This document shows positions 12,286-51,528 of a stretch of DNA of 64,000 nucleotides, one piece after another. A program made the position numbers and the translations under genes. Source of the stretch: Methylocystis sp. IM3 (GTDB lineage Bacteria > Pseudomonadota > Alphaproteobacteria > Rhizobiales > Beijerinckiaceae); contig NZ_JBBPBZ010000002.1 of the NCBI RefSeq assembly GCF_038070105.1, positions 1,748,001 to 1,812,000 of the forward strand, written 5' to 3'. Each line of letters starts with the position of its first letter. Within the stretch, counting starts at the first letter, position 1. The notes beneath the pieces were generated by a model, which was given only the letters and a program-made list of their open reading frames with translations, did not search any database and had not been told where the DNA came from.

Positions 12286-12582
12286 CTAGCCGATCGTCAT
12301 CCACTCGGCGAGAAGGCCGATGTCGATGATGAAACCCGCCATCGCCAGCCCGGCCGCAAAGGGCAGGGATTCGCCCATCAGGCCGAGAGCGAGCGCCGGG
12401 ACGGTCAGCCAGAAGAAAACGAGGTCGAAGGGCAGGAGGCCGTTGCGGAAGATCGACAGCGTCACGATCCAGAACAGCGCCTGCGCCAGAGCGATTGCAA
12501 TAACGACCGCACGGACGAGGAGCGATGAGCCGGGGCTTCGACCTTCGCCAGCCCGATTCGGAAAACCGGCGCGATTTGGCAT
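12286..12582 (-). CDS. Small three-helix membrane protein in the cysE-cysK operon
   Basis: 98 residues with a short Arg/Pro-rich head and three hydrophobic stretches (about 22-46, 52-70 and 73-95). The ATG is preceded by GAGGA and lies 14 bases after cysK, so it is co-transcribed with cysE and cysK. No family recognised. Given its place it might serve sulfide, thiosulfate or cysteine transport or membrane anchoring of the pathway, but that is inference from position only. Confidence 0.6.
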   Translation of the reverse strand: MPNRAGFPNRAGEGRSPGSSLLVRAVVIAIALAQALFWIVTLSIFRNGLLPFDLVFFWLTVPALALGLMGESLPFAAGLAMAGFIIDIGLLAEWMTIG

Positions 12583-12596
12583 CAGCGTATCCTCGC

Positions 12597-13580
12597 CTAA
12601 AAGCCTTCGAACAGCGCGGTCGAGAGATAACGCTCGGCGAAAGAGGGGATGACCACGACGATGTTCTTGCCCTCGGCCTCTGGCCTCGCGCCGATTTCCA
12701 GAGCGGCGGCGAGGGCGGCGCCCGACGAGACGCCGATCGGCGCGCCTTCGAGCCGCGCGGCGAGGCGGGCCGTTTCAAAAGCCGTGTGATTGCCGATGGC
12801 GACGATTTCGTCGATCACGCTGCGATCGAGAACGGCCGGCACGAATCCGGCGCCGACGCCCTGAATCTTGTGCGGCCCTGGCGGGCGGCCGGAGAGAACG
12901 GCGGAGTCCTCAGGCTCCACGGCGACGACGCGCAGGCCGGGGCGGCGCGGCTTCAGCGCGTGACCCACGCCCGTGATCGTGCCGCCGGTGCCGACGCCCG
13001 CGACGAAATAATCGATGGCTCCCTTTGTATCGTTCCAGATTTCCTCCGCCGTGGTGAGGCGGTGACACTCGGGATTGGCGGCGTTCTCGAATTGTCGCGG
13101 AATGACGGCGTCGGGGTTTTTCGAGACCAGCTCGTCGGCTTTGGCGAGCGCGCCCTTCATGCCCTGCGAGGCGGGCGTCAACACGAGTTCGGCGCCGAGC
13201 AGCGCGAGCATCTTGCGCCGTTCGAGCGACATGGACTCCGGCATGACGAGGATGAGCTTGTAGCCGCGCGCGGCGGCGACGAAGGCGAGCGCAATGCCGG
13301 TGTTGCCCGAGGTCGGCTCGATCAGCACGCTGCGGCCGGGCGCAATGCGGCCATCCGCTTCGAGCCTGTCGATCATGGCGACGCCGATGCGGTCCTTGAC
13401 GCTGGAAAGCGGATTGAAGAATTCGAGTTTCGCCAGAATATGCGCCTTCACGCCTTTGGCTTGCGCGATGCGGTCGAGCCGCACGAGAGGCGTGTCGCCG
13501 GTTGTCTCTGTGATGGAACCGTAGATGCGTCCCCTTCCTGGCCGGGCCGCCGGCATGAAACGCGCGTCATGGATCGTCAT
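12597..13580 (-). CDS. cysK: Cysteine synthase (O-acetylserine sulfhydrylase)
   Basis: PLP enzyme (fold type II) that makes cysteine from O-acetylserine and sulfide in the cytoplasm. 327 residues, the usual length plus about 15 at the N-terminus. Lys62 in NPLSSVKDR holds [11 protein letters not shown] binds the substrate carboxylate, and [10 protein letters not shown] binds the PLP phosphate. It lies 50 bases downstream of cysE on the same strand, so O-acetylserine is made by the neighbour. The divergent operon encodes an encapsulated cysteine desulfurase, which would consume the product. Confidence 0.95.
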
Positions 13581-13630
13581 GGGACCGTCCTTTCGTGGAG
13601 TTGCTCAGGTCCGCCGTCTTTCGGATCGCC

Positions 13631-14575
13631 TCAAATCCCCGCGCCGTGGTCGAACGCTTCCACATGCGCTTTCGCCTGGGTGATGTTGCTGCCGGGCGGC
13701 ACGCTGTGGGTGAGCCACACATTGCCGCCGATGGTGGAGCCGCGCCCGATGGTGATGCGCCCGAGCACCGTGGCGCCGGCGTAGATCACCACGTCGTCCT
13801 CGATGATCGGATGGCGCGGCTTGCCCTTTTCGAGCGCGCCGTTTTCATCGACGTTGAATCGCTTCGCGCCGAGCGTCACCGCTTGATAGAGCCGCACGCC
13901 TTTGCCGATGATCGCGGTCTCGCCGATCACGACGCCGGTGCCGTGATCGATGAAGAAGCCGTCGTCGATCGTCGCGCCCGGATGGATGTCGATGCCGGTC
14001 TCCGCATGAGCGATCTCGGCCACGATGCGGGCGATCATCGGCGCCCCCAGACGGTAGAGCCGGTGCGCGAGCCGATGCCGGATCAGGGCAAGGACGCCGG
14101 GATAGCAGAAAATCACCTCGTCGACGCTCTTCGCGGCCGGATCGCCCAGATAGGCGGCGTTCACATCGGTATCGAGCTGCGCGCGGATGCGCGGCAAAGC
14201 TTCAATGAATTCTTCGGCGATTTCGGTCGCGCGCAGCGCCGCCGCCTCTTCCGACGCGTCGGCGAGAAACAGCCTCACTTCCCGGCGGATCTGCTCACGC
14301 AGCGCGAGAAAAAGTCGCTCGAGCTGGCGCGCCAGCTGATGGTCCGACGCATGAAACTGCTCGTCCGGCGGGCCGAAATGCCGCGGATAAAGAATTGCGG
14401 CGAGATCGCCGAGGAGTTTCGCGACGACGGCGCGGGAGGGCAGCTCGGGCGGGAAGACGCCATTCCCGTAGCGCCGCGCCTGGGAGGCTTTGCGCAGAGA
14501 ACCGAGATCTGACACGACGCTTTGAAATCGCAGACGTTCGGGCCCTGTGACCACCGTTTCGAGCATATTGGCCAT
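13631..14575 (-). CDS. cysE: Serine O-acetyltransferase (EpsC/CysE type)
   Basis: Acetylates serine with acetyl-CoA to give O-acetylserine. About 314 residues: a helical N-terminal part, then a left-handed beta-helix of hexapeptide repeats from about residue 200 (IDIHPGATIDDGFFIDHG, VVIGETAIIGKGVRLYQAVT, then DDVVIYAGATVLGRITIG). The DHGTG and HP motifs around the active site are intact. The long N-terminal domain matches the EpsC/SrpH-like branch that typically accompanies family 2A encapsulins, rather than enteric CysE. Start uncertain: TTG 14599, ATG 14575 or ATG 14566; the last two have better spacing to purine-rich sites. First gene of the cysE-cysK-membrane protein operon. Confidence 0.92.
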   Translation of the reverse strand: MANMLETVVTGPERLRFQSVVSDLGSLRKASQARRYGNGVFPPELPSRAVVAKLLGDLAAILYPRHFGPPDEQFHASDHQLARQLERLFLALREQIRREVRLFLADASEEAAALRATEIAEEFIEALPRIRAQLDTDVNAAYLGDPAAKSVDEVIFCYPGVLALIRHRLAHRLYRLGAPMIARIVAEIAHAETGIDIHPGATIDDGFFIDHGTGVVIGETAIIGKGVRLYQAVTLGAKRFNVDENGALEKGKPRHPIIEDDVVIYAGATVLGRITIGRGSTIGGNVWLTHSVPPGSNITQAKAHVEAFDHGAGI

Positions 14576-14613
14576 CTCTTCGAAATTCTCCCTGAACAAG
14601 GCCGACAGGCGTC

Positions 14614-14642
14614 TTTACTGCATAAGCTTGGTAGACTATAGG
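14614..14642 (+). promoter_or_regulatory. Putative promoter of the encapsulin operon
   Basis: TTTACT (14614-14619), 17 bases, TATAGG (14637-14642) in the short region between divergent cysE and the encapsulin gene. On the minus strand TATAGT overlaps the same bases as a candidate -10 for cysE, so the two promoters appear to interleave. Expected start site is near 14650. Confidence 0.45.
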
Positions 14643-14646
14643 GAAT

Positions 14647-14660
14647 AAATCAATTGATTT
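14647..14660. promoter_or_regulatory. Perfect 14-bp palindrome, candidate Rrf2 operator
   Basis: AAATCAATTGATTT reads the same on both strands and lies on the expected transcription start of the encapsulin operon and just upstream of the cysE promoter. The third gene of the operon encodes an Rrf2-family regulator, whose members bind AT-rich dyads, so autoregulation of both operons from one site is a reasonable inference. Confidence 0.45.
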
Positions 14661-14707
14661 TTCGTTCCGCGGAATTTTCCCGGCGCGGGCGATTTCAAGG
14701 AGAGCGC

Positions 14708-15655
14708 ATGACGACAGAACCTGAAGTTCGCAAAACGTTGAGCGAGGCGGCCGCGCGCCAGCTCGCCAACGCCACGAAAACGCGCCCGCAATGGTCGGGC
14801 ATCACGCCGAGGTGGCTCGTTTCCTTCCTGCCGTGGGTCCCGGTCGAAGCCGGCATCTATCGCTTGAACCGCGTCAAGGAATCATCCGCGCTCACGGACG
14901 CCGACGTGCAATGCAGTCCGGCGCGCGATCGCGACGCCGATCTGCCCGAGACCTTCGTCGACTATGAGGACGCGCCGCGCGAATATTCGATGAACGCGGT
15001 GACGACGGTGCTCGACGTGCAGACCCGCGTCTCCGATCTCTACAATCATCCTTACGATCAGATACAGGAGCAAGTGCGTCTTCTCACCGAGAAGGTGAAG
15101 GAGAAGCAGGAGGCCGAGCTCATCAACAATGCGGAGTATGGCTTTCTCGCCAATGCGCATTCCTCGATGAAGATCGCGACGCGCAAGGGCCCGCCGACGC
15201 CCGACGATCTCGACGAGCTGATTTCGCGCGTTTGGAAGGAGCCGGCCTTCTTCCTCGCGCATCCGCGCGCCATCGCGGCCTTCGGGCGCGAATGCACGCG
15301 CCGCGGGGTGCCGCCGCCGACCGTGACGCTATTTGGTTCGCCCTTCCTCACCTGGCGCGGCTTGCCGCTCGTGCCGAGCGACAAGCTCTACATCGACGAG
15401 AACGGCAAGACCAACATCCTGCTGTTGCGCACCGGCGAGAAGAAGCAGGGCGTGATCGGCCTGTTCCAGCCCGGCGTGCCGGGCGAGGTGGCGCCGAGCC
15501 TGTCGGTTCGCTTCATGGGCATCAACCGCAAGGCGATCGCGTCCTATCTGATCTCGCTCTACTGCTCGGCCGCCGTGTTGACGCATGACGCGCTCGGCGT
15601 GCTCGAGGACGTCGATGTGAGCAAATTCCACGACTATGACGACAAGCGCGTCTGA
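14708..15655 (+). CDS. Family 2A encapsulin shell protein
   Basis: 315-residue HK97-fold shell protein of the family 2A encapsulins (SrpI-like), which self-assemble into closed nanocompartments. AAGGAG precedes the ATG at 14708. Recognisable regions: the N-terminal arm SEAAARQLANATKTRPQWSG, ITPRWLVSFLPWVPVEAGIY, the long helix DLYNHPYDQIQEQVRLLTEK with EKQEAELINN, the DLDELISRVWKEPAFFLAHP segment and GLFQPGVPGEVAPSLSVRFM near the C-terminus. There is no inserted cyclic-nucleotide-binding domain, which separates it from family 2B. The next gene encodes the classic 2A cargo, a cysteine desulfurase, and the flanking genes are all sulfur metabolism. Known 2A shells are sulfur-starvation responsive in cyanobacteria; the same trigger here is inference. 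Confidence 0.93.
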   Translation: MTTEPEVRKTLSEAAARQLANATKTRPQWSGITPRWLVSFLPWVPVEAGIYRLNRVKESSALTDADVQCSPARDRDADLPETFVDYEDAPREYSMNAVTTVLDVQTRVSDLYNHPYDQIQEQVRLLTEKVKEKQEAELINNAEYGFLANAHSSMKIATRKGPPTPDDLDELISRVWKEPAFFLAHPRAIAAFGRECTRRGVPPPTVTLFGSPFLTWRGLPLVPSDKLYIDENGKTNILLLRTGEKKQGVIGLFQPGVPGEVAPSLSVRFMGINRKAIASYLISLYCSAAVLTHDALGVLEDVDVSKFHDYDDKRV

Positions 15656-15675
15656 CGCGCCGAGCCATGAACAAC

Positions 15676-15699
15676 GCCGGCGGCGTCTCCGCCGCCGGC
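15676..15699 (+). other. Intercistronic 10-bp hairpin between shell and cargo genes
   Basis: GCCGGCGGCG and CGCCGCCGGC pair perfectly around the tetraloop TCTC, followed by CCTTGTCAATTTTCG. It could partly terminate transcription or protect the 3' end of the shell message, lowering cargo relative to shell. Confidence 0.6.
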
Positions 15700-15728
15700 C
15701 CTTGTCAATTTTCGAGGAAGCCGAGCCC

Positions 15729-17963
15729 ATGTCGTCAGTCAAATCCGCCGCGCCCGTCTCCGCCGATCCGCCTTTCGAGGCGCTTCCGGCGCAGGACTTT
15801 AACGAACATGCGCGCCCGGCTTTCGATCCGGCCTTGATCGCGCGGCTCGCCAACGGGTTCTTTCAACAGCCGCCTGTCGCATTCTCATCCTCGCCGCTCC
15901 CCTTTGGTCCGCCGGCGCATACGCCGAGCCTGCCGGATGCGCCGGCGCCCTCGGTCGTCACCACCGCCGCGCCTCATACGCCGGCGCGCGCGCCTTTCGG
16001 GCCCCCGGACATTCCGCAAACGACGATCCCTTCCGTGGTCCCGACGCCGAATATTCCGGCTCCCGGCGCGCCGACGGGCCTCCAGTCGCCGACCCGCCCG
16101 CTCGGCCTCGATCAGATCCCTCAGCCCGGCGGCTCCCCTGCGGGCGGCGTCCCGGCGGAGGTGGATTACAGCCTGATCCCGCGTCTGCTTGCCGCCGACC
16201 CGCGAAGCGAACTGGCGCTCGCGCCGGCGAGGCGCTCCGCGCCGCCAACGGTCGGTCTGGGCGATATGGGCCTTCCCGGCGGCGGCGCGCCTGCGCCTGC
16301 GGATCATCTCTATTTTCTGCACGCGCGCAGCGCGCCCGAAGCCGCGCCGGCGCCCTATGCCGTTGCGCCGCTCGCTCCGGCCGTTCCGCCGCAGCCCGAA
16401 CTCGGCCGCCCCAATATTCCGGTCGCGGCGCCGAGCGCGCCCGCGCTTGCCGAGGCGAATGCGACGCCCGCGCCGGAGAGCTTCGTCATCCCGCAGCCCT
16501 CGCAGGCCGATCCGCATCGCCTCTCGGACGTCGCCTCGTTCGCGACGCCGCCCATCGACGGCGAGCAGGCGCCGGGCGGTTTCGACCGTTACCCCTCGCC
16601 CGACCAGAGTGGACCCGCCGCGCACGACGCCTTCTATTTTATCGACCACGGCGGCGGCCATGCGGCCCCGGTCCCGGCGCCCGCCGAGCCCGAGGGCTAT
16701 GCGCCGCAATTGTCCGCCGGCTCGGCCGAGACGCGGACGGTTTTCGACCCCTATCGCGTAAAGCGGGATTTCCCGATCCTGCAACAGCAGGTGCACGGCA
16801 AACCGCTCATCTGGCTCGACAACGCCGCGACGACGCAGAAGCCCCAGTCGGTGATCGACCGCCTGTCGCATTTCTACGAATATGAAAACTCCAACATTCA
16901 CCGCGCCGCTCATGCGCTCGCGGCGCGTTCGACGGACGCCTATGAAGCCGCCCGCGAGAAGGTCCGCCGCTTTCTGAAGGCGCCGAGCGTCAGGGATATC
17001 GTCTTCGTGCGCGGCGCGACGGAAGGGATCAATCTCGTCGCCCAGGCCTGGGGCCGGCGCCATGTGCGCGAGGGGGACGAGATCGTCGTGTCGCATCTCG
17101 AGCATCACGCCAATATCGTCCCCTGGCAGATGCTCTGCGCCGAGAGGGGCGCACGGCTGCGCGTCGCGCCGGTGGATGATCGCGGCCAGATCATTCTCGA
17201 AGACTACGAGAAGCTTCTCAATCCGCGCACGCGCATCGTCGCCGTCACGCAGGTCTCGAATGCGCTCGGCACGGTGACGCCCGTTCGGGAGATCACGTCC
17301 ATCGCGCATCGCCACGGCGCCTGCGTGCTGATCGACGGCGCGCAATCCGTCTCGCACATGCCCGTAGACGTGCAGTCGATCGACTGCGACTTCTTCGTCT
17401 TCTCCGGCCATAAGGTGTTCGGCCCGACCGGGATCGGCGCGGTCTATGGCAAGGGCGCCGTGCTCGAACACACCCCGCCATGGCAGGGCGGCGGCAATAT
17501 GATTGCCGACGTCACCTTCGAGAAGACGATCTATCAGGACGCCCCTGAGCGTTTCGAAGCCGGCACCGGCAATATTGCCGACGCCGTAGGGCTCGGCGCC
17601 GCCATCGATTATGTCGAGAGCATCGGCATGGAGGTCATCGCCCGCTACGAGCACGACCTCCTCGTTTACGCGACCGAGAAGATGCGGCTCGTGCCGGGGC
17701 TGACCTTCATCGGCACGGCGGCTGAAAAGGCGTCCGTTCTTTCCTTCGTGCTCGACGGCCACAGCCCGCTCGAAGTCGGCAAGGCGCTGGATCGCGAGGG
17801 CATCGCCGTGCGCGCCGGGCACCATTGCGCGCAGCCGATCCTGCGCCGCTTCGGGCTGGAGGCGACGGTGCGGCCCGCACTCGCCTTCTACAACACCTGC
17901 GCCGACGTCGATACGCTGGTCGCGGCGCTTCTCAAATTGCAGGCGGGCAGGGGACGGCTCTAA
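15729..17963 (+). CDS. Encapsulin-cargo cysteine desulfurase with long disordered N-terminus
   Basis: 744 residues from ATG 15729, which has GAGGAA upstream. The C-terminal 405 residues are a SufS-type (class II) PLP cysteine desulfurase that converts cysteine to alanine and an enzyme persulfide: WLDNAATTQKP, HLEHHANIVPWQ, PLP lysine Lys562 in SGHKVFGPTG and catalytic Cys700 in AGHHCAQP. The first 335 residues are Pro/Ala-rich and presumably disordered, with islands such as DYSLIPRLLA, HLYFLHAR and DAFYFIDHG that look like cargo-loading contacts for the shell. An ATG at 15636 inside the shell gene would add only an Arg-run translated from the intercistronic hairpin, so it was rejected. Well-studied 2A cargo proteins have an extension of roughly 225 residues; this one is markedly longer. 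Confidence 0.92.
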   Translation: MSSVKSAAPVSADPPFEALPAQDFNEHARPAFDPALIARLANGFFQQPPVAFSSSPLPFGPPAHTPSLPDAPAPSVVTTAAPHTPARAPFGPPDIPQTTIPSVVPTPNIPAPGAPTGLQSPTRPLGLDQIPQPGGSPAGGVPAEVDYSLIPRLLAADPRSELALAPARRSAPPTVGLGDMGLPGGGAPAPADHLYFLHARSAPEAAPAPYAVAPLAPAVPPQPELGRPNIPVAAPSAPALAEANATPAPESFVIPQPSQADPHRLSDVASFATPPIDGEQAPGGFDRYPSPDQSGPAAHDAFYFIDHGGGHAAPVPAPAEPEGYAPQLSAGSAETRTVFDPYRVKRDFPILQQQVHGKPLIWLDNAATTQKPQSVIDRLSHFYEYENSNIHRAAHALAARSTDAYEAAREKVRRFLKAPSVRDIVFVRGATEGINLVAQAWGRRHVREGDEIVVSHLEHHANIVPWQMLCAERGARLRVAPVDDRGQIILEDYEKLLNPRTRIVAVTQVSNALGTVTPVREITSIAHRHGACVLIDGAQSVSHMPVDVQSIDCDFFVFSGHKVFGPTGIGAVYGKGAVLEHTPPWQGGGNMIADVTFEKTIYQDAPERFEAGTGNIADAVGLGAAIDYVESIGMEVIARYEHDLLVYATEKMRLVPGLTFIGTAAEKASVLSFVLDGHSPLEVGKALDREGIAVRAGHHCAQPILRRFGLEATVRPALAFYNTCADVDTLVAALLKLQAGRGRL

Positions 17964-17971
17964 GGGACGCC

Positions 17972-18433
17972 ATGCTGACCAGGAAAGGGAAATACGCCCT
18001 CAAGGCGATGGCGCATCTCGCCGGCGCGGCCGGGGGCCAGCCCGTCCGCGTCGTAGAGATCGCTGAAACTCAAAAGATTCCGAAGAAGTTTCTCGATGGC
18101 ATCCTCTGCGAATTGCGCAACGCCGGTTTCGTGCATTCGAAGATGGGAAAGGGCGGCGGTTATTGTCTGGCGCGGCCGGCGAGCGAGATCATGATCGGCG
18201 ACATCGTGCGCGCCATCGACGGCCCGCTCGCGCCCATGCCCTGCGCGAGCAAGACGCGTTACCGACGCTGCGACGATTGTCTCGATGAAGATACCTGCGC
18301 CGTGCGCCGCCTGATGCAGAAGGCGCAGCAGGCGCTCTCCGGCGTCCTCGATCATTGCTCGCTGGAGAGAATGCGAGACATAGCCGAGCTCCGCGCCGAG
18401 ACGGACGCCGCTCTGCAACATCTGGCGCATTGA
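17972..18433 (+). CDS. Rrf2 family transcriptional regulator, Cys-rich
   Basis: 153 residues starting with the winged-helix typical of Rrf2 proteins (MLTRKGKYALKAMAHLA; helix-turn-helix around residues 27-60). The sensor part carries Cys91, Cys100, Cys103 and Cys109, resembling the cluster-binding cysteines of IscR, plus Cys129, so an iron-sulfur cluster or thiol state may be the signal. It starts 8 bases after the cargo gene with AAGGGA, so it is part of the encapsulin operon and likely controls it through the palindrome at 14647-14660. The SUF operon in this window has no Rrf2 gene of its own, so cross-regulation is possible. Confidence 0.88.
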   Translation: MLTRKGKYALKAMAHLAGAAGGQPVRVVEIAETQKIPKKFLDGILCELRNAGFVHSKMGKGGGYCLARPASEIMIGDIVRAIDGPLAPMPCASKTRYRRCDDCLDEDTCAVRRLMQKAQQALSGVLDHCSLERMRDIAELRAETDAALQHLAH

Positions 18434-18508: not shown

Positions 18509-19675
18509 TCATATCTTCAGCCGAAACGAGAAACCGGCCTGCCAGTTCTTGGCGATCTGCGGGCCGTTGAGATTTTGATAGACGGGAAGGCCCGCCTCGA
18601 AGGCGACCGACGCGGCGTCGACGCCGATCAACTTGCCGCTGACGACGCCGCCGCCGAAAAGTTCGACGCGCTGTCCGCCATAGAAGGCCGGGTTGGTTGG
18701 CACGGCGCGCCCAAGGATTTGCGGATCGAAACCGGAAATCTGTCCCTGCGTCACGCCGCTGGCGCGGAAGGTGGCTGTCACGCCGGGGATCAGCGTATAA
18801 CCTCCCCAGCCGTTGAACTCATGCAGGTCGCCGAAGCGCCAGTTTTCGGGATTCCTCGCAAGCGGCAAGCGTGCGCGGTAGGAGAGACCCCACGACCATT
18901 GGCCGATGTTTCCCGCATAGACGACGCCGGGCATGATGTCGAATGTGCCGCTTCCAGGCTGCATGCCGTAGAACGCCCGAATGTTCGGGACCGTCCCGTC
19001 CGCCTGCAGCAGATCGAAGCGCGCCGTATTGAAGCTGAACGGATAGGCGAAGCCGAGATTGACCTGAATCCGGTGCACCGGGTCTTGGTAAATTCTGTAG
19101 ATCGCCGAGGTCGTGAAATCCGAAAGACCGAATGTTCCCGGGTAGCTTCGGCCCAGCGGCGTGGCGCCGGATTGTCCCTTGAAGGTGAGCGCCTCGAGCC
19201 GCTTTTCGACGATCGAGGCGGTGACGACGACGGAAAGGTCCTCCGAAAGGCCATAGGAGATCAGGCCCGTCTGCGCCGAGACCGCGATGTTTTGCGGCAC
19301 GAGCCTCAGCTTTTTCGTCGGATCGACCCACCAGGGAATGGTCGAGACGATGAATTCCGAACTGACGCCCTGCGTGCCGATCCGCTGCCCGGAGAGATTC
19401 GCCCAGACGGGCGCGATCGCGAGCACGAATTTGCCTTTGGCCGGCATGTCGGCGCCAAAGACGCCCATGGGCGCCGGCGGGCGCTGCGGAGGCGGGGCAG
19501 GCTGCTGCGGAGCCTCCGACGGCGCGACTTTCGGCGTCGCCGCGATGGCGGTCGCGCGCTTGCCCGCCGCCCAGACCGACGATGACGCGATCCCGAACGG
19601 GATGGCGCAGCTCGCGAGCAACAGCATTCTCATCAGCCGGCCACGCCTGGCCGTCTCTCCTGCATGCAGATTCAT
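18509..19675 (-). CDS. Outer-membrane beta-barrel protein, transporter-like
   Basis: About 388 residues: signal peptide (MRMLLLASCAIPFGIASSSVWA), a Pro-rich linker, then a repetitive beta-strand pattern to the end, as in the MetA-type/phenol-pathway transporter family (KFVLAIAPVWANLSGQRIG, GLISYGLSEDLSVVVTAS, DFTTSAIYRIYQ, ending WQAGFSFRLKI). Such proteins form outer-membrane channels for small hydrophobic substrates; members are common in methylotrophs. It is convergent with the encapsulin operon. Starts at 19675 or 19633 are both possible; the longer frame upstream lacks sense. Confidence 0.65.
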   Translation of the reverse strand: MNLHAGETARRGRLMRMLLLASCAIPFGIASSSVWAAGKRATAIAATPKVAPSEAPQQPAPPPQRPPAPMGVFGADMPAKGKFVLAIAPVWANLSGQRIGTQGVSSEFIVSTIPWWVDPTKKLRLVPQNIAVSAQTGLISYGLSEDLSVVVTASIVEKRLEALTFKGQSGATPLGRSYPGTFGLSDFTTSAIYRIYQDPVHRIQVNLGFAYPFSFNTARFDLLQADGTVPNIRAFYGMQPGSGTFDIMPGVVYAGNIGQWSWGLSYRARLPLARNPENWRFGDLHEFNGWGGYTLIPGVTATFRASGVTQGQISGFDPQILGRAVPTNPAFYGGQRVELFGGGVVSGKLIGVDAASVAFEAGLPVYQNLNGPQIAKNWQAGFSFRLKI

Positions 19676-19991: not shown

Positions 19992-20663
19992 TCACATGCC
20001 CGCACGCGGTGTATGAGCTAGTAGCAGTTCGGCGATTTTGCGCGCTTCGAGCGCGGGGGTCGGGGCCTTCTTGATGGCGGCCTTCACGATGGCGCCGTCG
20101 ATCAGCAAATCGAATTGCTGCGTGAGCAGTTCGACGTCGTCTAGGCCCGCGGCGTGGATGAGCGCGCGCAATTGCTCGAGCACGTGGCTCTTGTGGCTGC
20201 GGATGATTTCAGCAAGCTTCTGGTCCGTGTTGCGGCTCTCCATCGCCGCATTCATCAGCGCGCAGCCCAGATAATCCTCGCGGCGGAACCATTCGTCCAT
20301 AATGTCGAACCAGGCGAGCAATTTTTCACGGGGCGTTCCGGGGGTCTCGGCGAGACGCGAAAAGAACCAGGCGCGCCAGACGCCCGCCTCATGCGTGAGC
20401 GCCGCATGAATCAACCCATCCTTGGAGCCATAGCGATTGTAGAGCGTCATGCGCGCCACGCCCGACTCTTCGACGATTTCGTCGACGCTCGTCGCGGCGA
20501 CGCCTTTACGGCAACATAGGCCAATCGCCGCCTCCAGCAGACGCGCATTGGCCTTCGGGCCGGTTTGCGTCGCTTCCTTCTTGCGGGCGCGTCCCAGGCG
20601 GTTCGCCGCCGTTGGCGACAGCCGGTTGTTCCGCGTTTTCGTAGCCGATGGACGCTTTTCCAT
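19992..20663 (-). CDS. TetR/AcrR family transcriptional regulator
   Basis: 223 residues. After a basic head of about 35 residues comes the TetR helix-turn-helix (LLEAAIGLCCRKGVAATSVD, then GVARMTLYNRYGSKDGLIHA), followed by an all-helical ligand domain. It is divergent from the ABC-transporter operon at 20814 and most likely represses it, with ligand unknown. A partly symmetrical TAGACCATTCGTTCTG lies just 8 bases upstream of its start. Two adjacent cysteines (CC) sit in the first helix of the DNA-binding domain. Confidence 0.88.
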   Translation of the reverse strand: MEKRPSATKTRNNRLSPTAANRLGRARKKEATQTGPKANARLLEAAIGLCCRKGVAATSVDEIVEESGVARMTLYNRYGSKDGLIHAALTHEAGVWRAWFFSRLAETPGTPREKLLAWFDIMDEWFRREDYLGCALMNAAMESRNTDQKLAEIIRSHKSHVLEQLRALIHAAGLDDVELLTQQFDLLIDGAIVKAAIKKAPTPALEARKIAELLLAHTPRAGM

Positions 20664-20741: not shown

Positions 20742-20771
20742 ATGACGGGAGAAATCCAGCCACTTGATAAT
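20742..20771 (+). promoter_or_regulatory. Putative promoter of the sulfur-type ABC operon
   Basis: ATGACG (20742-20747), 18 bases, GATAAT (20766-20771), followed by an AT-rich initially transcribed region, 43 bases before the GTG start of the ATPase gene. Confidence 0.4.
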
Positions 20772-20813
20772 ATCTATTATTTTTGTAGTCTGTTTGCCGA
20801 AAGGAGCCGCCCC

Positions 20814-21575
20814 GTGCCGATCTCTCTTCCGCTGATTCAATTGCGCCGCGTCGCGCATCGCCATGCCCGCCACGCCACGCCGGTTCTCGCCGACGTGAAC
20901 CTGTGCGTCCAACCCGGAGAATGCGTCGCTGTCATCGGCCGCAGCGGCTGCGGAAAGTCGACGCTTTTGCAGATCATGGCTGGGCTTCTCCAGCCGACAC
21001 GAGGCGACATTCGCTTCGCCGACCGGTTCGACGACTGCAAACCGATCCGTCGCACGCTGATGTTCCAGCGCCCCTTGCTCTTCCCCTGGCTCGACGCCGC
21101 CGGCAACGTCGCTTTGGCGCTGCATTTCGATGGCCGCAAGCAGGAGGCGCGGGACCGCGCCGAGGCGCTGCTCGCGCAGGTCGGCCTTGCCGGACGCGGG
21201 CGCGCCCATGTGCGCGAACTCTCTGGCGGGCAGCAACAGCGCGTGGCGCTCGCGCGCTCCCTCGCCGTGGATCCCGATGTTCTCCTTCTCGACGAGCCCT
21301 TTTCCGCGCTCGATCCCGTGACCCGCGGCGATCTTCGTCGCGAGCTGCGCAACATGCGGCGGAAATTTGAATTCGCCCTGATGGTCGTCACTCACGATGT
21401 CGACGACGCGCTCGATCTCGCCACGCGCGTCGTCGTGATGGCCGCCGATCCGGGCCGCGTCGTCGCCGAGTTCGAGATCCCGCGCGAGATCGACGGCGAG
21501 GGCCGCGCACGGTTGCGCGCGCGTCTTCTCGACGCTCTCGAACCCGAACTCTATCCCTTCGCTTTGGGCGCCTGA
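20814..21575 (+). CDS. ABC transporter ATP-binding protein (SsuB/TauB-like)
   Basis: 253 residues from GTG 20814, chosen because AAAGGAG lies 8 bases before it; the frame is open further upstream but without a ribosome-binding site. Walker A GRSGCGKST near residue 42, signature LSGGQQQR near 137, Walker B DVLLLDEP near 155 and the switch histidine in VTHDVDDAL. The family energises uptake of nitrate, sulfonates, taurine or related compounds. First gene of a five-gene operon with substrate-binding protein, permease, OsmC and an acyl-CoA-dehydrogenase-like enzyme. Sulfonate or other organosulfur is the likeliest substrate from the last gene. Confidence 0.9.
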   Translation: MPISLPLIQLRRVAHRHARHATPVLADVNLCVQPGECVAVIGRSGCGKSTLLQIMAGLLQPTRGDIRFADRFDDCKPIRRTLMFQRPLLFPWLDAAGNVALALHFDGRKQEARDRAEALLAQVGLAGRGRAHVRELSGGQQQRVALARSLAVDPDVLLLDEPFSALDPVTRGDLRRELRNMRRKFEFALMVVTHDVDDALDLATRVVVMAADPGRVVAEFEIPREIDGEGRARLRARLLDALEPELYPFALGA

Positions 21576-21591
21576 CGAAAGCAAAAGAACC

Positions 21592-22821
21592 ATGTGCAAG
21601 GATTGCGACCATTACGATCTCCATTATGCTCCGGGCGCGGGCGTGTCGCGCCGTCACGTTCTCGACCGGCTCGCCATGGGCGGCCTCGCGGCGCTGCTTG
21701 CGGGCACGTCTGGCGCGGCGCGCGCCTTCGAGAGCGACGACGAGACTCTGCGCATCGGCTATCTCCCGATCACCGACGCGACGCCGCTGCTCCTTGCCCA
21801 CGCCAAGGGGTATTTCGAGGAGGAGGGGCTCAAGGTCGCCAAGCCCGAGCTCATTCGCGGCTGGGCGCCGCTGATCGAGGGCTTCACGGCCGGGCGCTTC
21901 AATGTCGTCCATCTGCTGAAGCCGACGGCGCTCTGGCTGCGCTACGGCAGCCATGTGCCGGTGAAGGTTGTCGCCTGGGCGCACACCAACGGCTCGGCGC
22001 TCGTCGTGCAGGGCGACGGCGGCGTGAAAGACTTTTCCGATCTCGCCGGCAAGCAGCTCGCCGTGCCGTTCTGGTATTCGATGCACAATATCGTGCTGCA
22101 ATACGCACTGCGCAAAAGCGGGCTCACGCCGGTCGTCAAGCCGCAGGGGGCGACGCTCGGGCCCAGGGAAGTCAATCTGCAGATTCTTCAGCCGCCGGAT
22201 ATGCCGCCGGCGCTCGCAGCAAAGAAGATCGACGGCTACATCGTCGCCGAGCCTTTCGACGCGCTTGGCGAATTGAACGCCGGTGCGCGGGTGCTGCGCT
22301 TTACCGGAGACATTTGGAAAAATCATCCTTGTTGCGTCGTCTCCATGTTGCAGCCGTTGATCGAGAAGCGGCCGGAATGGGCGCAGAAAGTCGTCAACGC
22401 GATTGTGCGCGCGGAAATCTACGCCTCGCAGAACAAGGAAGAAGTCGCAAAGCTTCTCTCGCGCGACGGCGCCGGCTATCTGCCCGCGCCCGCCAAAGTG
22501 GTGACGCGCGCCGTGACGGCCTACGCGCAGGATCCTGCCTACGAGGACGTCATTCGCCATGCCGATTGGGGCAATGGCCGCATTGATTTCGACCCGTGGC
22601 CCTATCCCTCGGCGACGCGCCTGATCGTGCAGCAGCTCAAGGACACGAAGATCGAAGGCGACCGCGTCTTTCTCGACGCGCTCGATCCCGATTTCGTGGC
22701 GAAGGATCTCGTCGATTACGCGCTCGTCAAAAAGGCGCTTGCGCGCTACCCCGATTGGCGGCGGGATCGGAGCGCCGCGAAGGGCGATCCTTTCAGCCGG
22801 CAGGAGCTCCTGGCGCTATGA
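21592..22821 (+). CDS. ABC transporter substrate-binding protein, Tat-exported
   Basis: 409 residues of the NrtA/CmpA/SsuA-like periplasmic binding protein family. The N-terminus has MCKDCDHYDLHY, then a twin-arginine motif SRRHVL followed by a hydrophobic stretch, so export through Tat is predicted. The mature part begins near ESDDETLRIGYLPITDATPL and contains IVAEPFDALGELNAG and the late WGNGRIDFDPWPYP. The CxxC in the unusually long n-region is odd for a signal peptide. Its stop codon overlaps the permease start (ATGA). Confidence 0.87.
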   Translation: MCKDCDHYDLHYAPGAGVSRRHVLDRLAMGGLAALLAGTSGAARAFESDDETLRIGYLPITDATPLLLAHAKGYFEEEGLKVAKPELIRGWAPLIEGFTAGRFNVVHLLKPTALWLRYGSHVPVKVVAWAHTNGSALVVQGDGGVKDFSDLAGKQLAVPFWYSMHNIVLQYALRKSGLTPVVKPQGATLGPREVNLQILQPPDMPPALAAKKIDGYIVAEPFDALGELNAGARVLRFTGDIWKNHPCCVVSMLQPLIEKRPEWAQKVVNAIVRAEIYASQNKEEVAKLLSRDGAGYLPAPAKVVTRAVTAYAQDPAYEDVIRHADWGNGRIDFDPWPYPSATRLIVQQLKDTKIEGDRVFLDALDPDFVAKDLVDYALVKKALARYPDWRRDRSAAKGDPFSRQELLAL

Positions 22822-23669
22822 CCAGCGTGGCCATGACCTCTCCCGTCGGCCGACGCGCCGCGCGCCGCCTGAGGGCGCTTCGAGAGAGCCTGCGGTCGGC
22901 CGGCCGGCGCCTGGCGGGCGGCCTCGTCGATGTGAGCGGCCTCGCCATTCTCCTGGGCCTCTGGGCGTTCGGCGGCTGGCTGATCGCCCGCAATCCAGGG
23001 ACCGCCGCATTCGCGGGCTTCGCGCCGGCGCCCGCCTTGCGCCGGCTCTTCGAGATGCTCCTCGACGGCTCGGCGCTGGCCGCCGCAAGCCCCAGTCTCG
23101 GGCGCATCGCCGGCGGTCTCGCCATCGCCCTTGCGGCGGGCGCGCCGATTGGCGTTCTCGTCGGACGAAGCGCGCTGTTCCGCAAGGCGACGCGGCTGCC
23201 TTTCCAGCTCCTGCGCATGGTGAGCCCGCTCGCCTGGATGCCGATCGCGATCCTTGCCTTTCCCACATGGAACGCGGCCATCGTCTTTCTCATCTTCGCG
23301 GCCTCGATCTGGCCGATCGTTTTCTCGACCGCGCATGGCGTGCGAAAACTCGATCCCGACTGGTTTCGGCTCGCGCACAATCTCGGCGCGGGGCGTTTTC
23401 AGATTCTCGCCGCCGTCGTCGTTCCGGCGGTTGCGCAGGATGTTTTGACGGGGCTCCGCCTCGCGCTCGGCGTCGCCTGGATCGTTCTGGTCCCGGCCGA
23501 ATATCTCGGAGTCACCAGCGGGCTCGGCTACGCGATCAACGACGCGCGCGACACGCTCGATTACGACCGCCTCGCTGCGATCGTGGTTCTCATCGGCCTC
23601 ATCGGCTTTTTCCTCGACGCGCTCATCGTGACGGCGATCGCGCGCGTCTCGTGGACGCATCACGACTGA
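22818..23669 (+). CDS. ABC transporter permease (SsuC/TauC-like)
   Basis: 283 residues, about six membrane segments, BPD_transp_1 fold. The coupling loop is in the usual place: NLGAGRFQILAAVVVPAVAQ followed by DVLTGLRLALGVAW and VPAEYLGVTSGLGY. The start overlaps the stop of the substrate-binding protein gene by four bases, indicating translational coupling. Works with the preceding two gene products as a nitrate/sulfonate/taurine-type importer. Confidence 0.9.
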   Translation: MTSVAMTSPVGRRAARRLRALRESLRSAGRRLAGGLVDVSGLAILLGLWAFGGWLIARNPGTAAFAGFAPAPALRRLFEMLLDGSALAAASPSLGRIAGGLAIALAAGAPIGVLVGRSALFRKATRLPFQLLRMVSPLAWMPIAILAFPTWNAAIVFLIFAASIWPIVFSTAHGVRKLDPDWFRLAHNLGAGRFQILAAVVVPAVAQDVLTGLRLALGVAWIVLVPAEYLGVTSGLGYAINDARDTLDYDRLAAIVVLIGLIGFFLDALIVTAIARVSWTHHD

Positions 23670-23690
23670 CTCCAAAAGGATATGGTTGAC

Positions 23691-24242
23691 ATGAGCAATG
23701 ACGCCCCGGTTCTCACCTCCTGCCTCGCGCCGATCAGCAAGGACGGGCTCGACGCCCTCATCGCCGCCGGCAAGGCCGATCCAGCGGCCATCAAGACGGT
23801 CCGATGCCGCACGGTCGCCGAAGGCCGGTTCCGCCACCTCAATTTCATCCGCAATCTGCCGCCGCATATCGTCGACGAACCGCCGGGTTTGCTCGGCGAC
23901 GACACGGCCCCCAATCCCTCCGAGGCTCTGCTCGCCGCGCTCGGCTCCTGTCTGGCGGTCGGCATTCACGCCAACGCCGTCGCGCAGGGAATCGCCGTTC
24001 GTTCGCTCGTGCTCGATCTCGAAGCCGACATCAACATCACCTCGGTCTGGGGAACGGGCGACACCTCGCCCAAACCCGTCGGCTTCGAGGCGATCCGCGT
24101 GCGCGTGACGCTTGACGCCGACGCCCCGAAGGAGACGCTCGACGCGCTGATCGCCCATGCGCAGAAATGGTCGCCCGTCGCCAACACGATCGCAAAACCT
24201 GTGGCGCTCACGGTGACAGGCGCGGAAAAGGGCGACGCATGA
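23691..24242 (+). CDS. OsmC family protein
   Basis: About 183 residues. OsmC/Ohr proteins are small thiol peroxidases or thiol-dependent redox proteins. Two cysteines are present, in TVRCRT near residue 39 and in LGSCLAVGIHANAVA near residue 85, the latter being the conserved second OsmC motif. PNPSEALLAALGSC is characteristic. ATG 23691 has AAAGGA at better spacing than ATG 23682. Its stop overlaps the next start (ATGA). OsmC genes recur in organosulfur-scavenging operons, perhaps to protect flavin monooxygenases or handle persulfide products. Confidence 0.85.
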   Translation: MSNDAPVLTSCLAPISKDGLDALIAAGKADPAAIKTVRCRTVAEGRFRHLNFIRNLPPHIVDEPPGLLGDDTAPNPSEALLAALGSCLAVGIHANAVAQGIAVRSLVLDLEADINITSVWGTGDTSPKPVGFEAIRVRVTLDADAPKETLDALIAHAQKWSPVANTIAKPVALTVTGAEKGDA

Positions 24243-25390
24243 CTCTCGCGGGAACGACAGCGCCCGTCGCGCGCGCGCCCCAAAAGCCGGACATGCTCGC
24301 GCGGGTGCGCGCCGTCGTCGAGCGCGAGGTGAGGCCTCTCGCCGCGCGCATCGACGCCGACGGCCTTTACCCGTCCTCCGCGTTGACGCAACTCGGCGCC
24401 GCCGGCGCCTTCGCGCAGCATCACGAGGGCTTCGGGGAAGCGGCGGGCGTCGACCTCGGCCTCGCCATTTCTGCGATCAGCGCGGTTGCGGAGGCGTGCC
24501 TGTCCACGGCCTTCTGCGCCTGGTGCCAGGACGCCTTCGGCTGGTATCTTCAAAACTCGGAGAACCCCGGGCTTCGCGCGCGCCTGCAGGCCGCCGCCGC
24601 CGCGGGCGCCGCTCTCGGCGGCACGGGTCTGTCCAATCCGATGAAGACGCTTTCGGGCATCGAACCGATGCGGCTGCGCGGCGAAAGGGTCGCTGGCGGC
24701 TATCTCGTCGAGGGGGCGCTGCCCTGGGTGTCCAATCTGCAGGAGGGCCATTTCTTCGCCTTCTGCTTCGACGGGCCAAAGGGAGAGCGGGTCGCGGCTG
24801 TCGCGCGCCTTGGCGCGGATGGCGTCGAAAGCCGCAAGGGCGCGCAGTTCATCGCGCTCGAGGGGACGGCGACCTGCGCCGTGGGCTTCCGTAAAGCCTT
24901 CGTTGCAGATGAGAACCTGCTGTCCGACGCGCTCCCGCGTTTCGCGAGGCGCATCAAGCCCGGCTTCCTGCTGCTTCAGACGGGCATGGTGGCCGGCCTC
25001 GTGCGCGATTGCGCTGAACTCATGCGCGAACTCCCGGCGCGCATCCGAGAGATCAACGCTCATCTCCCCACGGGACCCGATGCGCTCGATGCATCGCTCG
25101 ACGCGCTCGAAGGGGAGATCATGTCGCTGGCGGCGACGCCCTTCGAAGACGATCAGGATTATTTGCGCCGCGTTCTCGAGGTGCGGCTCCGGGGATCGAC
25201 TCTTGCACTCGACGCGACACAGGCGCTCATGCTCCATGCGGGCGCGCGGTCTTATCTGCGCAACTCGCTCTACAGCCGGAGACTGAGGGAGTCTTACTTC
25301 ATCGCCATCGTGACGCCCGCGACCAAACATCTGCGCAAGGACCTCGCGGCGCTGGCCGCGCCGGGCGCGCGCTCTTGTGGGGCGCGCTGA
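24239..25390 (+). CDS. Acyl-CoA dehydrogenase-like oxidoreductase (possible sulfur monooxygenase)
   Basis: 383 residues with the acyl-CoA dehydrogenase fold: an N-terminal helical domain (MLARVRAVVEREVRPLAARI), a central beta domain (GAALGGTGLSNPMKTLSG; VEGALPWVSN) and a C-terminal helical domain (LALDATQALMLHAGARSYLR). The usual catalytic glutamate region is not evident, which favours the flavin-dependent monooxygenase branch (DszC/SfnB-like) that attacks organosulfur compounds with reduced FMN. Last gene of the TetR-linked uptake operon. No flavin reductase gene is nearby, so reduced flavin would come from elsewhere. Confidence 0.75.
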   Translation: MTLAGTTAPVARAPQKPDMLARVRAVVEREVRPLAARIDADGLYPSSALTQLGAAGAFAQHHEGFGEAAGVDLGLAISAISAVAEACLSTAFCAWCQDAFGWYLQNSENPGLRARLQAAAAAGAALGGTGLSNPMKTLSGIEPMRLRGERVAGGYLVEGALPWVSNLQEGHFFAFCFDGPKGERVAAVARLGADGVESRKGAQFIALEGTATCAVGFRKAFVADENLLSDALPRFARRIKPGFLLLQTGMVAGLVRDCAELMRELPARIREINAHLPTGPDALDASLDALEGEIMSLAATPFEDDQDYLRRVLEVRLRGSTLALDATQALMLHAGARSYLRNSLYSRRLRESYFIAIVTPATKHLRKDLAALAAPGARSCGAR

Positions 25391-49158: not shown

Positions 49159-50628
49159 ATGGCGGCTCGTCAGGAGACCGTTGCGCGCGTCGAGGAAATC
49201 GACGTCGACGCCTATAAGTATGGCTTTACGACCGATATCGAGTCGGAGAAGGCGCCCAAGGGGCTGAGCGAAGACATTGTTCGCTTCATCTCCGCCAAGA
49301 AGAACGAACCCGAGTGGCTGACCGAATGGCGGCTGGAGGCCTATCGCCGCTGGCTGACCATGCGTGAGCCGAATTGGGCGCGGGTCAATTATCCTGCGAT
49401 CGACTATCAGGACCTTTATTACTACTCCGCGCCGAAATCGACGCCGGGTCCGAAGTCGCTGGACGAGGTCGATCCAGAGCTTCTGCGCACCTATGAGAAG
49501 CTCGGCATCCCGCTGCGCGAGCAGGAGATTCTCGCGGGCGTCGAGACGCGCAAGGTGGCGGTCGACGCCGTGTTCGATTCGGTCTCCGTCGCGACGACCT
49601 TCAAGGAGGAACTGGCGAAGGCAGGGGTGATCTTCTGCCCGATCTCCGAGGCCGTGCAGACGCATCCCGAACTCGTGCGTAAATATCTCGGCTCGGTCGT
49701 GCCGGTGACCGACAATTTCTACGCCACGCTGAACAGCGCCGTCTTCTCCGACGGCTCCTTCGTCTATGTGCCCAAGGGCGTGCGCTGCCCGATGGAGCTT
49801 TCGACCTATTTCCGCATCAACGAGCAGAAGACGGGGCAATTCGAGCGCACGCTGATCATCGCCGACGAAGGCTCTTATGTCAGCTATCTCGAAGGCTGCA
49901 CGGCGCCAAAGCGCGACGAGAATCAGCTCCACGCCGCGGTGGTCGAACTCGTCGCGCTCGACGACGCCGAGATCAAATATTCAACGGTGCAGAACTGGTA
50001 TCCCGGCGACAGCGAGGGCAAAGGCGGCATTTACAATTTCGTCACCAAGCGCGGCGATTGCCGGGGCCGCAATTCGCATATTTCCTGGACGCAGGTGGAG
50101 ACGGGATCGGCGATCACCTGGAAATATCCGTCCTGCATTTTGCGCGGCGATGGTTCGCAAGGCGAATTCTATTCGATTGCGGTGTCGAACGGCCATCAGC
50201 AGGTCGACAGCGGGACGAAGATGATTCATCTGGGCCGCAACACCAGAAGCCGCATCGTGTCCAAGGGCATTTCGGCAGGCAAGTCGCAAAACACCTATCG
50301 CGGACAGGTCTCGGCGCATCGCAAGGCGGATGGCGCGCGCAACTTCACGCAATGCGACAGTCTGCTGATCGGCCACGAATGCGGAGCGCATACGGTACCC
50401 TATATCGAATCGAAGAACCCGAGCGCGCAGTTCGAGCACGAGGCGACGACCTCGAGGATCTCCGAGGACCAGCTGTTCTACGCCATGCAACGCGGGCTCT
50501 CGGCCGAAGAGGCGACGGCGCTGATCGTCAACGGATTCGTGCGCGATGTCTTGCAGCAATTGCCGATGGAGTTCGCGGTCGAGGCGCAAAAGCTGATCTC
50601 GATCTCGCTCGAGGGGAGCGTGGGGTAA
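49159..50628 (+). CDS. sufB: Fe-S cluster scaffold subunit SufB
   Basis: 489 residues; forms the SufBC2D scaffold on which clusters are built. The signature region [20 protein letters not shown] near the C-terminus, [20 protein letters not shown], and [20 protein letters not shown] are present, including the Cys that accepts persulfide in the C-terminal [17 protein letters not shown] segment. GAGGAGAAGAG lies before the ATG. Preceded by the IscS-like gene and separated from sufC by a pair of palindromes. Confidence 0.96.
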
Positions 50629-50640
50629 GCGCCCCGCGAC

Positions 50641-50742
50641 ATGGCCGGGCTTTTCCCGGCCATCCACGCGTGTCGAACACTGCGGCTCTCGCCCGCAATT
50701 ATGGAACAGGAAAGACGTGGATGGCCGGCGCAAGGCCGGCCA
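50641..50742. repeat. Paired REP-like palindromes between sufB and sufC
   Basis: Two palindromes face each other: ATGGCCGGG/CCCGGCCAT (50641-50663) and TGGCCGGC/GCCGGCCA (50722-50742). Their flanks are also complementary (CCGGCCATCCACG at 50656-50668 with CGTGGATGGCCGG at 50716-50728, 13 of 13), so a long stem is possible. The layout is that of BIME-type repeats and interrupts an operon. Confidence 0.65.
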
Positions 50743-50771
50743 CGACGACCAAAGGCCGGAAGAGTTTTACG

Positions 50772-51524
50772 ATGCTCGAAATCAAAAACCTCCACGTTTC
50801 GGTCGGCGACCGAAAGATTCTCAAGGGTCTTTCCCTCACCGTAAAGGACGGCGAGGTCGCCGCCATCATGGGGCCGAACGGCACCGGTAAGTCGACGCTC
50901 TCCTATGTGATCGCCGGCCGCGAGGGCTATGATGTCACGGACGGCGAGGTTCTGCTCAATGGCGAGAACATTCTCGGCCTCGAGCCCAACGAGCGCGCCG
51001 CGCGGGGGCTGTTTCTCGCCTTTCAATATCCGGTCGAAATCCCCGGCGTCGCCACCATGACCTTCCTCAAGGCCGCGATGAACGCCCAGCGACGTGCGCG
51101 TGGGGACGCGGAGTTGCAGACGCCCGACTTCATGAAGCGCGTGCGCGACGCCGCGGGCAAGCTCGGCGTGTCTCAGGAGATGTTGCGCCGGCCGCTCAAC
51201 TCCGGCTTCTCCGGCGGCGAGAAGAAGCGCATGGAAGTGTTGCAGATGGCGCTGCTGGAGCCGACCGTCGGCATTCTCGACGAGACCGACTCCGGCCTCG
51301 ACATCGATGCTCTGCGGGTCGTGTCGGAGGGCGTCAATGCGCTGCGGTCGCCGCGACGCTCCTTCCTGGTCATCACCCATTATCAGCGGCTGCTCGACTA
51401 CATCAAACCTGACACGGTGCATGTGATGGCGAAGGGCGTGATTCAACGCTCGGGCGGGCCGGAACTGGCGCTGGAGCTCGAAGAGCGCGGATACCAGGAA
51501 TATCTGTCGGACGAGGCGGCGTAG
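50772..51524 (+). CDS. sufC: Fe-S assembly ATPase SufC
   Basis: 250 residues; ABC-type ATPase driving the SufBCD scaffold. Walker A GPNGTGKST near residue 34, FLAFQYPVEIPGV in the Q-loop, signature NSGFSGGEKKRMEVLQMA near 143, Walker B GILDETDSGLDIDAL and ITHYQRLLDYIKPD with the switch His. The start at ATG 50772 gives the standard length. Stop is five bases before sufD. Confidence 0.96.
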   Translation: MLEIKNLHVSVGDRKILKGLSLTVKDGEVAAIMGPNGTGKSTLSYVIAGREGYDVTDGEVLLNGENILGLEPNERAARGLFLAFQYPVEIPGVATMTFLKAAMNAQRRARGDAELQTPDFMKRVRDAAGKLGVSQEMLRRPLNSGFSGGEKKRMEVLQMALLEPTVGILDETDSGLDIDALRVVSEGVNALRSPRRSFLVITHYQRLLDYIKPDTVHVMAKGVIQRSGGPELALELEERGYQEYLSDEAA

Positions 51525-51528
51525 GCGG

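Follow-up and report, generated by a model that had tools for sequence, protein, structure and literature searches.

A family 2A encapsulin locus of Methylocystis with a cysteine desulfurase cargo and a predicted operator in common with sulfate uptake genes

Background

What a bacterium gains by placing a cysteine desulfurase inside a protein shell is the question raised by a locus of Methylocystis sp. IM3, in which the genes for a family 2A encapsulin shell and a desulfurase with a long N-terminal region stand beside genes for cysteine synthesis and an Rrf2-family regulator. The locus lies in a stretch of 64,000 nucleotides (positions 1748001-1812000 of one contig of a 4.9-Mb genome), hereafter the window, whose own numbering is used below. 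A preliminary description, drawn from the letters of the window, had read it as divergent encapsulin and cysteine-synthesis operons that may store or buffer sulfur. That family 2A encapsulins are associated with serine acetyltransferase and induced by sulfate starvation is known, as is a model of storage, and the starvation and acetyltransferase links named in that description are indeed published (PMC8049743, PMC8346489, in the parts of both that were available). In Synechococcus elongatus, induction by sulfate starvation and cargo loading were shown, and storage was proposed as one model (PMC8049743, same passages).

Here we establish, by sequence comparison, the identities of the genes of this locus and the presence, in the genus, of a predicted dyad before transcription units both at encapsulin loci and at sulfate transporter genes. 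The common control element suggests that the encapsulin locus belongs to a response to sulfur shortage, and storage or buffering of sulfur at the locus is plausible. What is new is this regulatory setting, namely the predicted dyad common to the encapsulin locus and to sulfate uptake in Methylocystis and Methylosinus.

Results and discussion

The shell, its cargo and their companions

The locus comprises six genes and a predicted operator:

12286-12582, minus strand: small predicted membrane protein of 98 amino acids (aa), with three hydrophobic stretches by hydropathy; accessory
12597-13580, minus strand: cysK, cysteine synthase A (TIGR01139, 420 against a cut-off of 351)
13631-14566, minus strand: EpsC-type serine O-acetyltransferase (SAT), C-terminus GAGI (NF041874, 164.3 against 150)
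14616-14638, no strand: predicted operator in the gap between SAT and shell genes, TACTGCAT-N7-GTAGACTA (12.7 bits, third among 63,978 window positions)
14708-15655, plus strand: family 2A encapsulin shell, 315 aa (PF19307, 358 bits)
15729-17963, plus strand: cysteine desulfurase cargo with a long N-terminal region
17972-18433, plus strand: Rrf2-family regulator with a C-x8-C-x2-C-x5-C motif, ending LAH (TIGR00738, 118 against 73)

All six genes stand where the preliminary description had placed them and on the same strands; its family 2A shell, its desulfurase with a long N-terminus, the Rrf2 gene after the cargo and the tie to cysteine synthesis through SAT and cysK beside the shell are likewise borne out. 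Its control region of 130 bases is a divergent gap as described, but measures 141 base pairs (bp; 14567-14707). Its "cysE" does encode a serine acetyltransferase, but one of the EpsC type, which fails the canonical cysE model (TIGR01172, 165.4 against 210.65).

The shell is a family 2A encapsulin (NF041162, 515.4 against 380, E = 3.5e-155), predicted to assemble as such: it aligns with the solved SrpI (6x8m, 444 bits) and its relatives, has PF19307 as its sole Pfam match and is without the N-terminal cyclic-nucleotide (cNMP) domain that marks family 2B. It also passes the 2B model (441 against 400), only over positions 206-449 of 450, which are mostly the part common to both families. The desulfurase is the matching cargo (NF041166, 868.9 against 800, E = 3.2e-261), and comparison with relatives puts the start of its 744 aa at 15729 instead of the first ATG of the open reading frame, 15636. 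Most SrpI-linked desulfurases are reported to carry two N-terminal motifs (PMC8049743, as far as its accessible text goes), and here both are present, IARLANGFF corresponding to the published LARLANEFFS-like and LYFLHAR and FYFIDHG to the YYFLDG-like targeting motif, so that loading into the shell is predicted; the active-site stretches SGHKVFGP and RAGHHC are kept.

The same pairing recurs among relatives. In the 80 named loci, which are the best 80 of 558 confirmed relatives and many of which are cut by contig ends, the desulfurase (at least 250 bits) is present in 75, and in all 52 of those with full flanks. An EpsC-like SAT (at least 200 bits) is found in 52 named loci (36 of the 52 with full flanks), CysK (at least 250 bits) in 21 (15 of 52) and Rrf2 (at least 100 bits) in three (3 of 52), namely L043, which matches the window at 99% identity along its full length, and two Methylosinus loci. 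The membrane gene is matched in one of the 80. Within Methylocystis, 19 of 39 genomes carry the shell gene, and the 18 loci fetched are all but that of the window's own genome, the window's species being represented by L133; a linked Rrf2 is present in nine of them, SAT in 16 and CysK of at least 500 bits in six, all six with Rrf2. In genus g4 of the same family (L017, L018, L020-L023 and L028), shell frames of about 470-520 aa, a size that would fit family 2B, stand beside desulfurase and SAT-like genes. In a Propionivibrio metagenome-assembled genome (L118, 7824-9306) the desulfurase is split over two frames that overlap, which may reflect a frameshift or a mistake in assembly.

The window's genome holds a single shell gene, three further SATs above the canonical cysE cut-off and two further CysKs, one above and one below the cysKM cut-off. 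A stretch of the window 31 kb from the locus (49159-54056, plus strand) reads as a housekeeping SUF operon (sufB, sufC, sufD and sufS-like), one fragment of which matched TIGR01979 and whose sufS is distinct from the gene for the encapsulin cargo. The encapsulin locus is therefore a specialised extra set, not the cell's sole machinery for cysteine or iron-sulfur (Fe-S) clusters.

A predicted operator common to encapsulin and sulfate uptake genes

The core TAGTCTA was spotted by eye in the promoters of loci L043-L051 and afterwards tested on further loci. Across 20 encapsulin loci (18 of Methylocystis and two of Methylosinus; 344,660 bases) it occurs 19 times, with 11 copies within 300 bp upstream of the shell gene, five upstream of rrf2 and three elsewhere, and the sites align as a dyad, TAGTCTAT-N7-ATAGACTA. 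Free motif discovery on the promoters of Rrf2-paralog and TauE genes was dropped, as the operator was mixed there with promoter sequence conserved between close relatives. Scanning 14540-14720 for sigma-70 promoters gave no match.

Allowing up to three mismatches, the dyad occurs at three places in the window's genome. Its sole perfect copy lies about 25 bp before the sulfate-binding gene of a sulfate-transporter operon, in which genes for CysT, a second permease (not scanned) and CysA follow; the other two, each with three mismatches, lie about 90 bp in front of a large porin-like gene, itself downstream of the operon, and about 0.5 kb before another Rrf2 gene. In L183 (9793-12414) a porin-like protein of 873 aa (Alginate_exp plus an outer-membrane protein (OMP) beta-barrel) is encoded downstream of the sulfate operon with its own dyad, and similar pairs are seen in relatives. 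A wider survey covered 20 regions chosen from a cut-off list, some with sulfate genes expected. Its 24 sites precede seven sulfate-binding, four porin-like, three Sulf_transp, one cysK and two lysine-aminomutase-like genes, with seven sites lacking a clear sulfur target; families were checked for six of the seven binding genes, two of the three Sulf_transp genes, the cysK and one of the two aminomutases, the others being assigned by sequence likeness. The aminomutase cases are lysine-2,3-aminomutase-like radical S-adenosylmethionine genes of two species of the genus (L228, site 2626; L230, site 2413), with no obvious sulfur role.

A matrix was then built from 20 sites (five unannotated), none of them in an encapsulin locus or in the window's species, and its matches were compared with zones of up to 350 bp upstream of shell, SAT, cysK, rrf2, ATP-binding cassette (ABC) transporter or OMP genes, which make up 5.2% of the sequence. 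The top match fell within these zones in 18 of the 20 Methylocystis and Methylosinus encapsulin loci, as compared with a mean of 4.5 and a maximum of 11 for 300 column-permuted dyads, none of which reached 18. The two loci that failed are L143, on a contig of 4.5 kb, and L133, in which the best match falls in the TetR/ABC promoter outside the drawn zone. Among the 63,978 positions of the window the three best matches (20770, 16.8 bits; 19773, 15.9 bits; 14616, 12.7 bits) all lie in promoters of the encapsulin neighbourhood, and the next scores 7.0 bits. We regard the evidence for the predicted operator as good within Methylocystis and Methylosinus and as moderate for the window itself. The tie to sulfate uptake that it provides lay beyond what could be seen in the letters of the window.

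The regulator, SAT and CysK

The Rrf2 protein of the window falls short of both the CymR model (NF047409, 80.6 against 195) and the IscR model (TIGR02010, 83.1 against 207.55). Its four-cysteine motif is common to encapsulin-linked and housekeeping Rrf2 proteins (35 of 35 rows) and occurs in 119 of the best 120 of 4,169 database homologs, 82 of these 120 ending in isoleucine, mostly as YDI or YEI. A terminal isoleucine is found in 9 of 11 fetched encapsulin-linked Rrf2s, as opposed to one of 21 housekeeping rows (Fisher 5e-5 for 9 of 12 against 1 of 21, with relatedness ignored); L134 is among those without it. Extra divergent Rrf2 copies in L136 (3231-4250) and L140 (2577-3086), about 6-7 kb from the shell, are also without terminal isoleucine and were excluded from both counts. 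In 35 of the 39 genus genomes we counted a close Rrf2 paralog, with at least 71% identity.

The SAT of the window ends in isoleucine, the GAGI tail being of the kind associated with a cysteine synthase complex, and GxGI tails are present in 16 of 16 genus SATs and in 25 of 45 elsewhere; the accessible part of one study has the terminal isoleucine docking CysE on CysK, and reports a terminal isoleucine motif for CysK binding in CymR as well (PMC12895370). In a CysK tree of 49 rows, the seven high-scoring encapsulin-linked rows, the window's included, form one clade (99/100), nested inside the housekeeping CysKs of the genus (27-row clade, 96/92). The housekeeping CysK adjoins an Rrf2 paralog in 20 of 21 loci examined and a TauE-like gene (PF01925) in 18 of 21, and the tree indicates that the encapsulin-linked cysK was copied in from this Rrf2-TauE-CysK locus. 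Of the 19 CysKs that come from other family 2A loci, 17 are grouped in a branch apart, together with two genus rows (L134 and L148), and two Hyphomicrobium rows are placed elsewhere. The window CysK reads PRQF as against PQQF; no loss of the peptide-binding glutamine is claimed, since we judge the relevant residue, probably the one before the phenylalanine, to be kept.

These tails lend themselves to a tentative proposal, with the chances leaning somewhat against it: Rrf2 and SAT of one locus would compete, through their C-terminal isoleucine tails, for a single CysK active site, O-acetylserine would free both, and the switch would set the production of a sulfur-holding protein organelle. A switch like that of CymR and CysK might thus have evolved beside the encapsulin in Methylocystis and Methylosinus, served by a cysK copied out of the housekeeping locus; in the window's species the regulator would have lost its tail again.

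The outer-membrane-like gene and the ABC-OsmC operon

Beyond the regulator lies a further group of genes, which the preliminary description had passed over and whose promoters carry the same predicted operator:

18509-19675, minus strand: outer-membrane-like protein in our reading, without a family match, conserved in the sister locus L123
19773-19795, no strand: predicted operator, about 100 bp before the outer-membrane-like gene (15.9 bits)
19992-20663, minus strand: TetR-family regulator (PF00440)
20770-20792, no strand: predicted operator immediately before the ABC operon (16.8 bits, the window's highest score)
20814-25390, plus strand: operon for an ABC ATPase, a NitT/TauT-like binding protein, a permease, an OsmC-like protein and an acyl-CoA-dehydrogenase-fold protein (likely GTG start at 20814)

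In the sister species (L123) the outer-membrane-like gene and the same five ABC-OsmC genes directly precede, on one strand, those for the shell, the desulfurase, SAT and a protein that weakly matches the membrane protein (54 bits); predicted sites stand 36 bp before the shell gene (28.4 bits) and 47 bp before the ABC gene (18.2 bits). Among the 18 genus loci the operon is within the fetched stretch in L123 and L133 only; in a Paramagnetospirillum (L071), genes related to those for the ABC, binding and permease proteins are placed 2-5 kb past the desulfurase. An organosulfur compound as the operon's substrate is a guess from context. The acyl-CoA-dehydrogenase-fold protein has a predicted structure with a mean predicted local distance difference test score of 92.6, and acyl-CoA dehydrogenases lead its structural matches, their scores nearly tied; the 3-sulfinopropionyl-CoA desulfinases among the matches carry no weight by themselves.

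What the locus may do

We propose, being evenly divided on whether it is right, that a family 2A encapsulin with a desulfurase cargo has been built into a sulfur-limitation regulon, where it would act as a sulfur buffer. An Rrf2 regulator, linked or a housekeeping paralog, would repress through the dyad; under cysteine shortage, O-acetylserine from SAT would lift repression, by way of CysK where the Rrf2 has an isoleucine tail, and the uptake of sulfate and perhaps of organosulfur compounds, the SAT-CysK pair and the encapsulin would be induced jointly. SAT and CysK would then make cysteine, surplus of which the caged desulfurase would convert to alanine and persulfide or elemental sulfur kept in the shell. 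To make a store during starvation would be odd, and for this reason we prefer a buffer that would catch the surge of cysteine once sulfur is again available to a cell whose uptake is fully induced to a bulk store made in times of plenty.

Apart from that oddity, several observations weigh against the proposal. Five of the 11 shell-upstream core sites lie near SAT, 281-299 bp from the shell, so that direct control of the shell there is inferred. The dyad with up to three mismatches is rarer than its reversed control across the 39 genomes (135 against 221; more frequent in seven, less in 29), and the control likewise has three places in the window's genome; the evidence is thus one of placement and not of count. 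The matrix test is not fully independent, the dyad having first been read from encapsulin and rrf2 promoters. In the window the site in the SAT-shell gap is weak (12.7 bits), and five of 300 permuted dyads also put their top three matches in the window zones, which were drawn post hoc. The window Rrf2, like that of L133 from the same species, lacks the terminal isoleucine. Finally, no enrichment of the dyad was seen outside Methylocystis and Methylosinus (11 of 35 loci from other Alphaproteobacteria and 5 of 36 from elsewhere, with control means of 11.1 and 4.9), which rules it out as a general marker of family 2A loci.

Two other explanations are, in our estimate, each unlikely. The encapsulated desulfurase might be a sulfur donor that channels persulfide to an acceptor such as a rhodanese or Fe-S assembly, with the four-cysteine Rrf2 sensing Fe-S status like IscR: the motif is invariant in our rows, the IscR model scores slightly above that of CymR (83 against 81 bits), and rhodaneses are enriched at such loci elsewhere, with channelling proposed (PMC8346489, in the passages available). 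Against this stand the unreached IscR cut-off, the separate sufS in the same window and the dyad targets of the genus, most of which (15 of 24 sites) belong to sulfate and sulfur transport. Alternatively, the dyad could be real but bound by a regulator other than Rrf2, the linked Rrf2 controlling something else; this would suit the genus loci that have the core without a linked rrf2 (L141, L142, L145, L146 and L147) and the predicted nature of Rrf2 binding, yet the core or dyad precedes rrf2 itself in five loci, and the widespread Rrf2 paralog could act on unlinked loci.

The sulfur store of the preliminary description, with its membrane protein feeding or exporting sulfide, is very improbable: the protein family is real (19 database proteins, the window's own included), has three hydrophobic stretches and its gene follows cysK by 14 bp on the same strand, but it has no Pfam or NCBIfam domain match, no result points to sulfide, and its presence in three of the 18 fetched genus encapsulin loci, together with the lack of a known domain, marks it as no core part. 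Overall, that description is partly supported.

Relationship to known systems

The nearest precedent is SrpI/CyD of S. elongatus PCC 7942 (Nichols et al. 2021, PMC8049743, as far as its available text goes), with the same shell family, a desulfurase cargo with both N-terminal motifs and a link to sulfur starvation; the window differs in gene order and in having the Rrf2 gene, the operator and the neighbouring ABC-OsmC operon. In the Giessen survey of family 2A desulfurase operons, SAT is a highly enriched accessory gene, as here, and the words Rrf2 and IscR are absent from its main text, regulon membership not being described in the passages at hand (PMC8346489). The CymR-CysK complex of Bacillus subtilis, cited in PMC12895370 and PMC4961446 (both available in part), offers a parallel in which an Rrf2-family regulator is tied to cysteine metabolism and CysK, a likeness strengthened by the isoleucine tails of most fetched encapsulin-linked Rrf2s; the window Rrf2 differs from CymR in its four-cysteine motif, its low score with the CymR model and its terminus. 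Searches of a literature that covered few subscription journals, so that an earlier description is possible, returned nothing on an encapsulin in Methylocystis or on an Rrf2 regulon of sulfate and cysteine in Alphaproteobacteria, and only an iron-detoxification review on encapsulin with Rrf2; papers matching Rrf2 together with a sulfur-assimilation regulon were returned. The srpG and srpH genes beside srpI presumably encode cysteine synthase and SAT, and linkage to the SAT-CysK pair would hence be old. Storage of elemental sulfur is reportedly the subject, to judge by its title, of work by Benisch et al. from 2024.

Conclusions

A predicted regulon with sulfate uptake, together with a candidate operator and a candidate regulator, makes the role of family 2A encapsulins in the cell a testable question in methanotrophs, in which the outer-membrane-like gene and the ABC-OsmC-flavoprotein operon are candidate suppliers of the compartment's sulfur.

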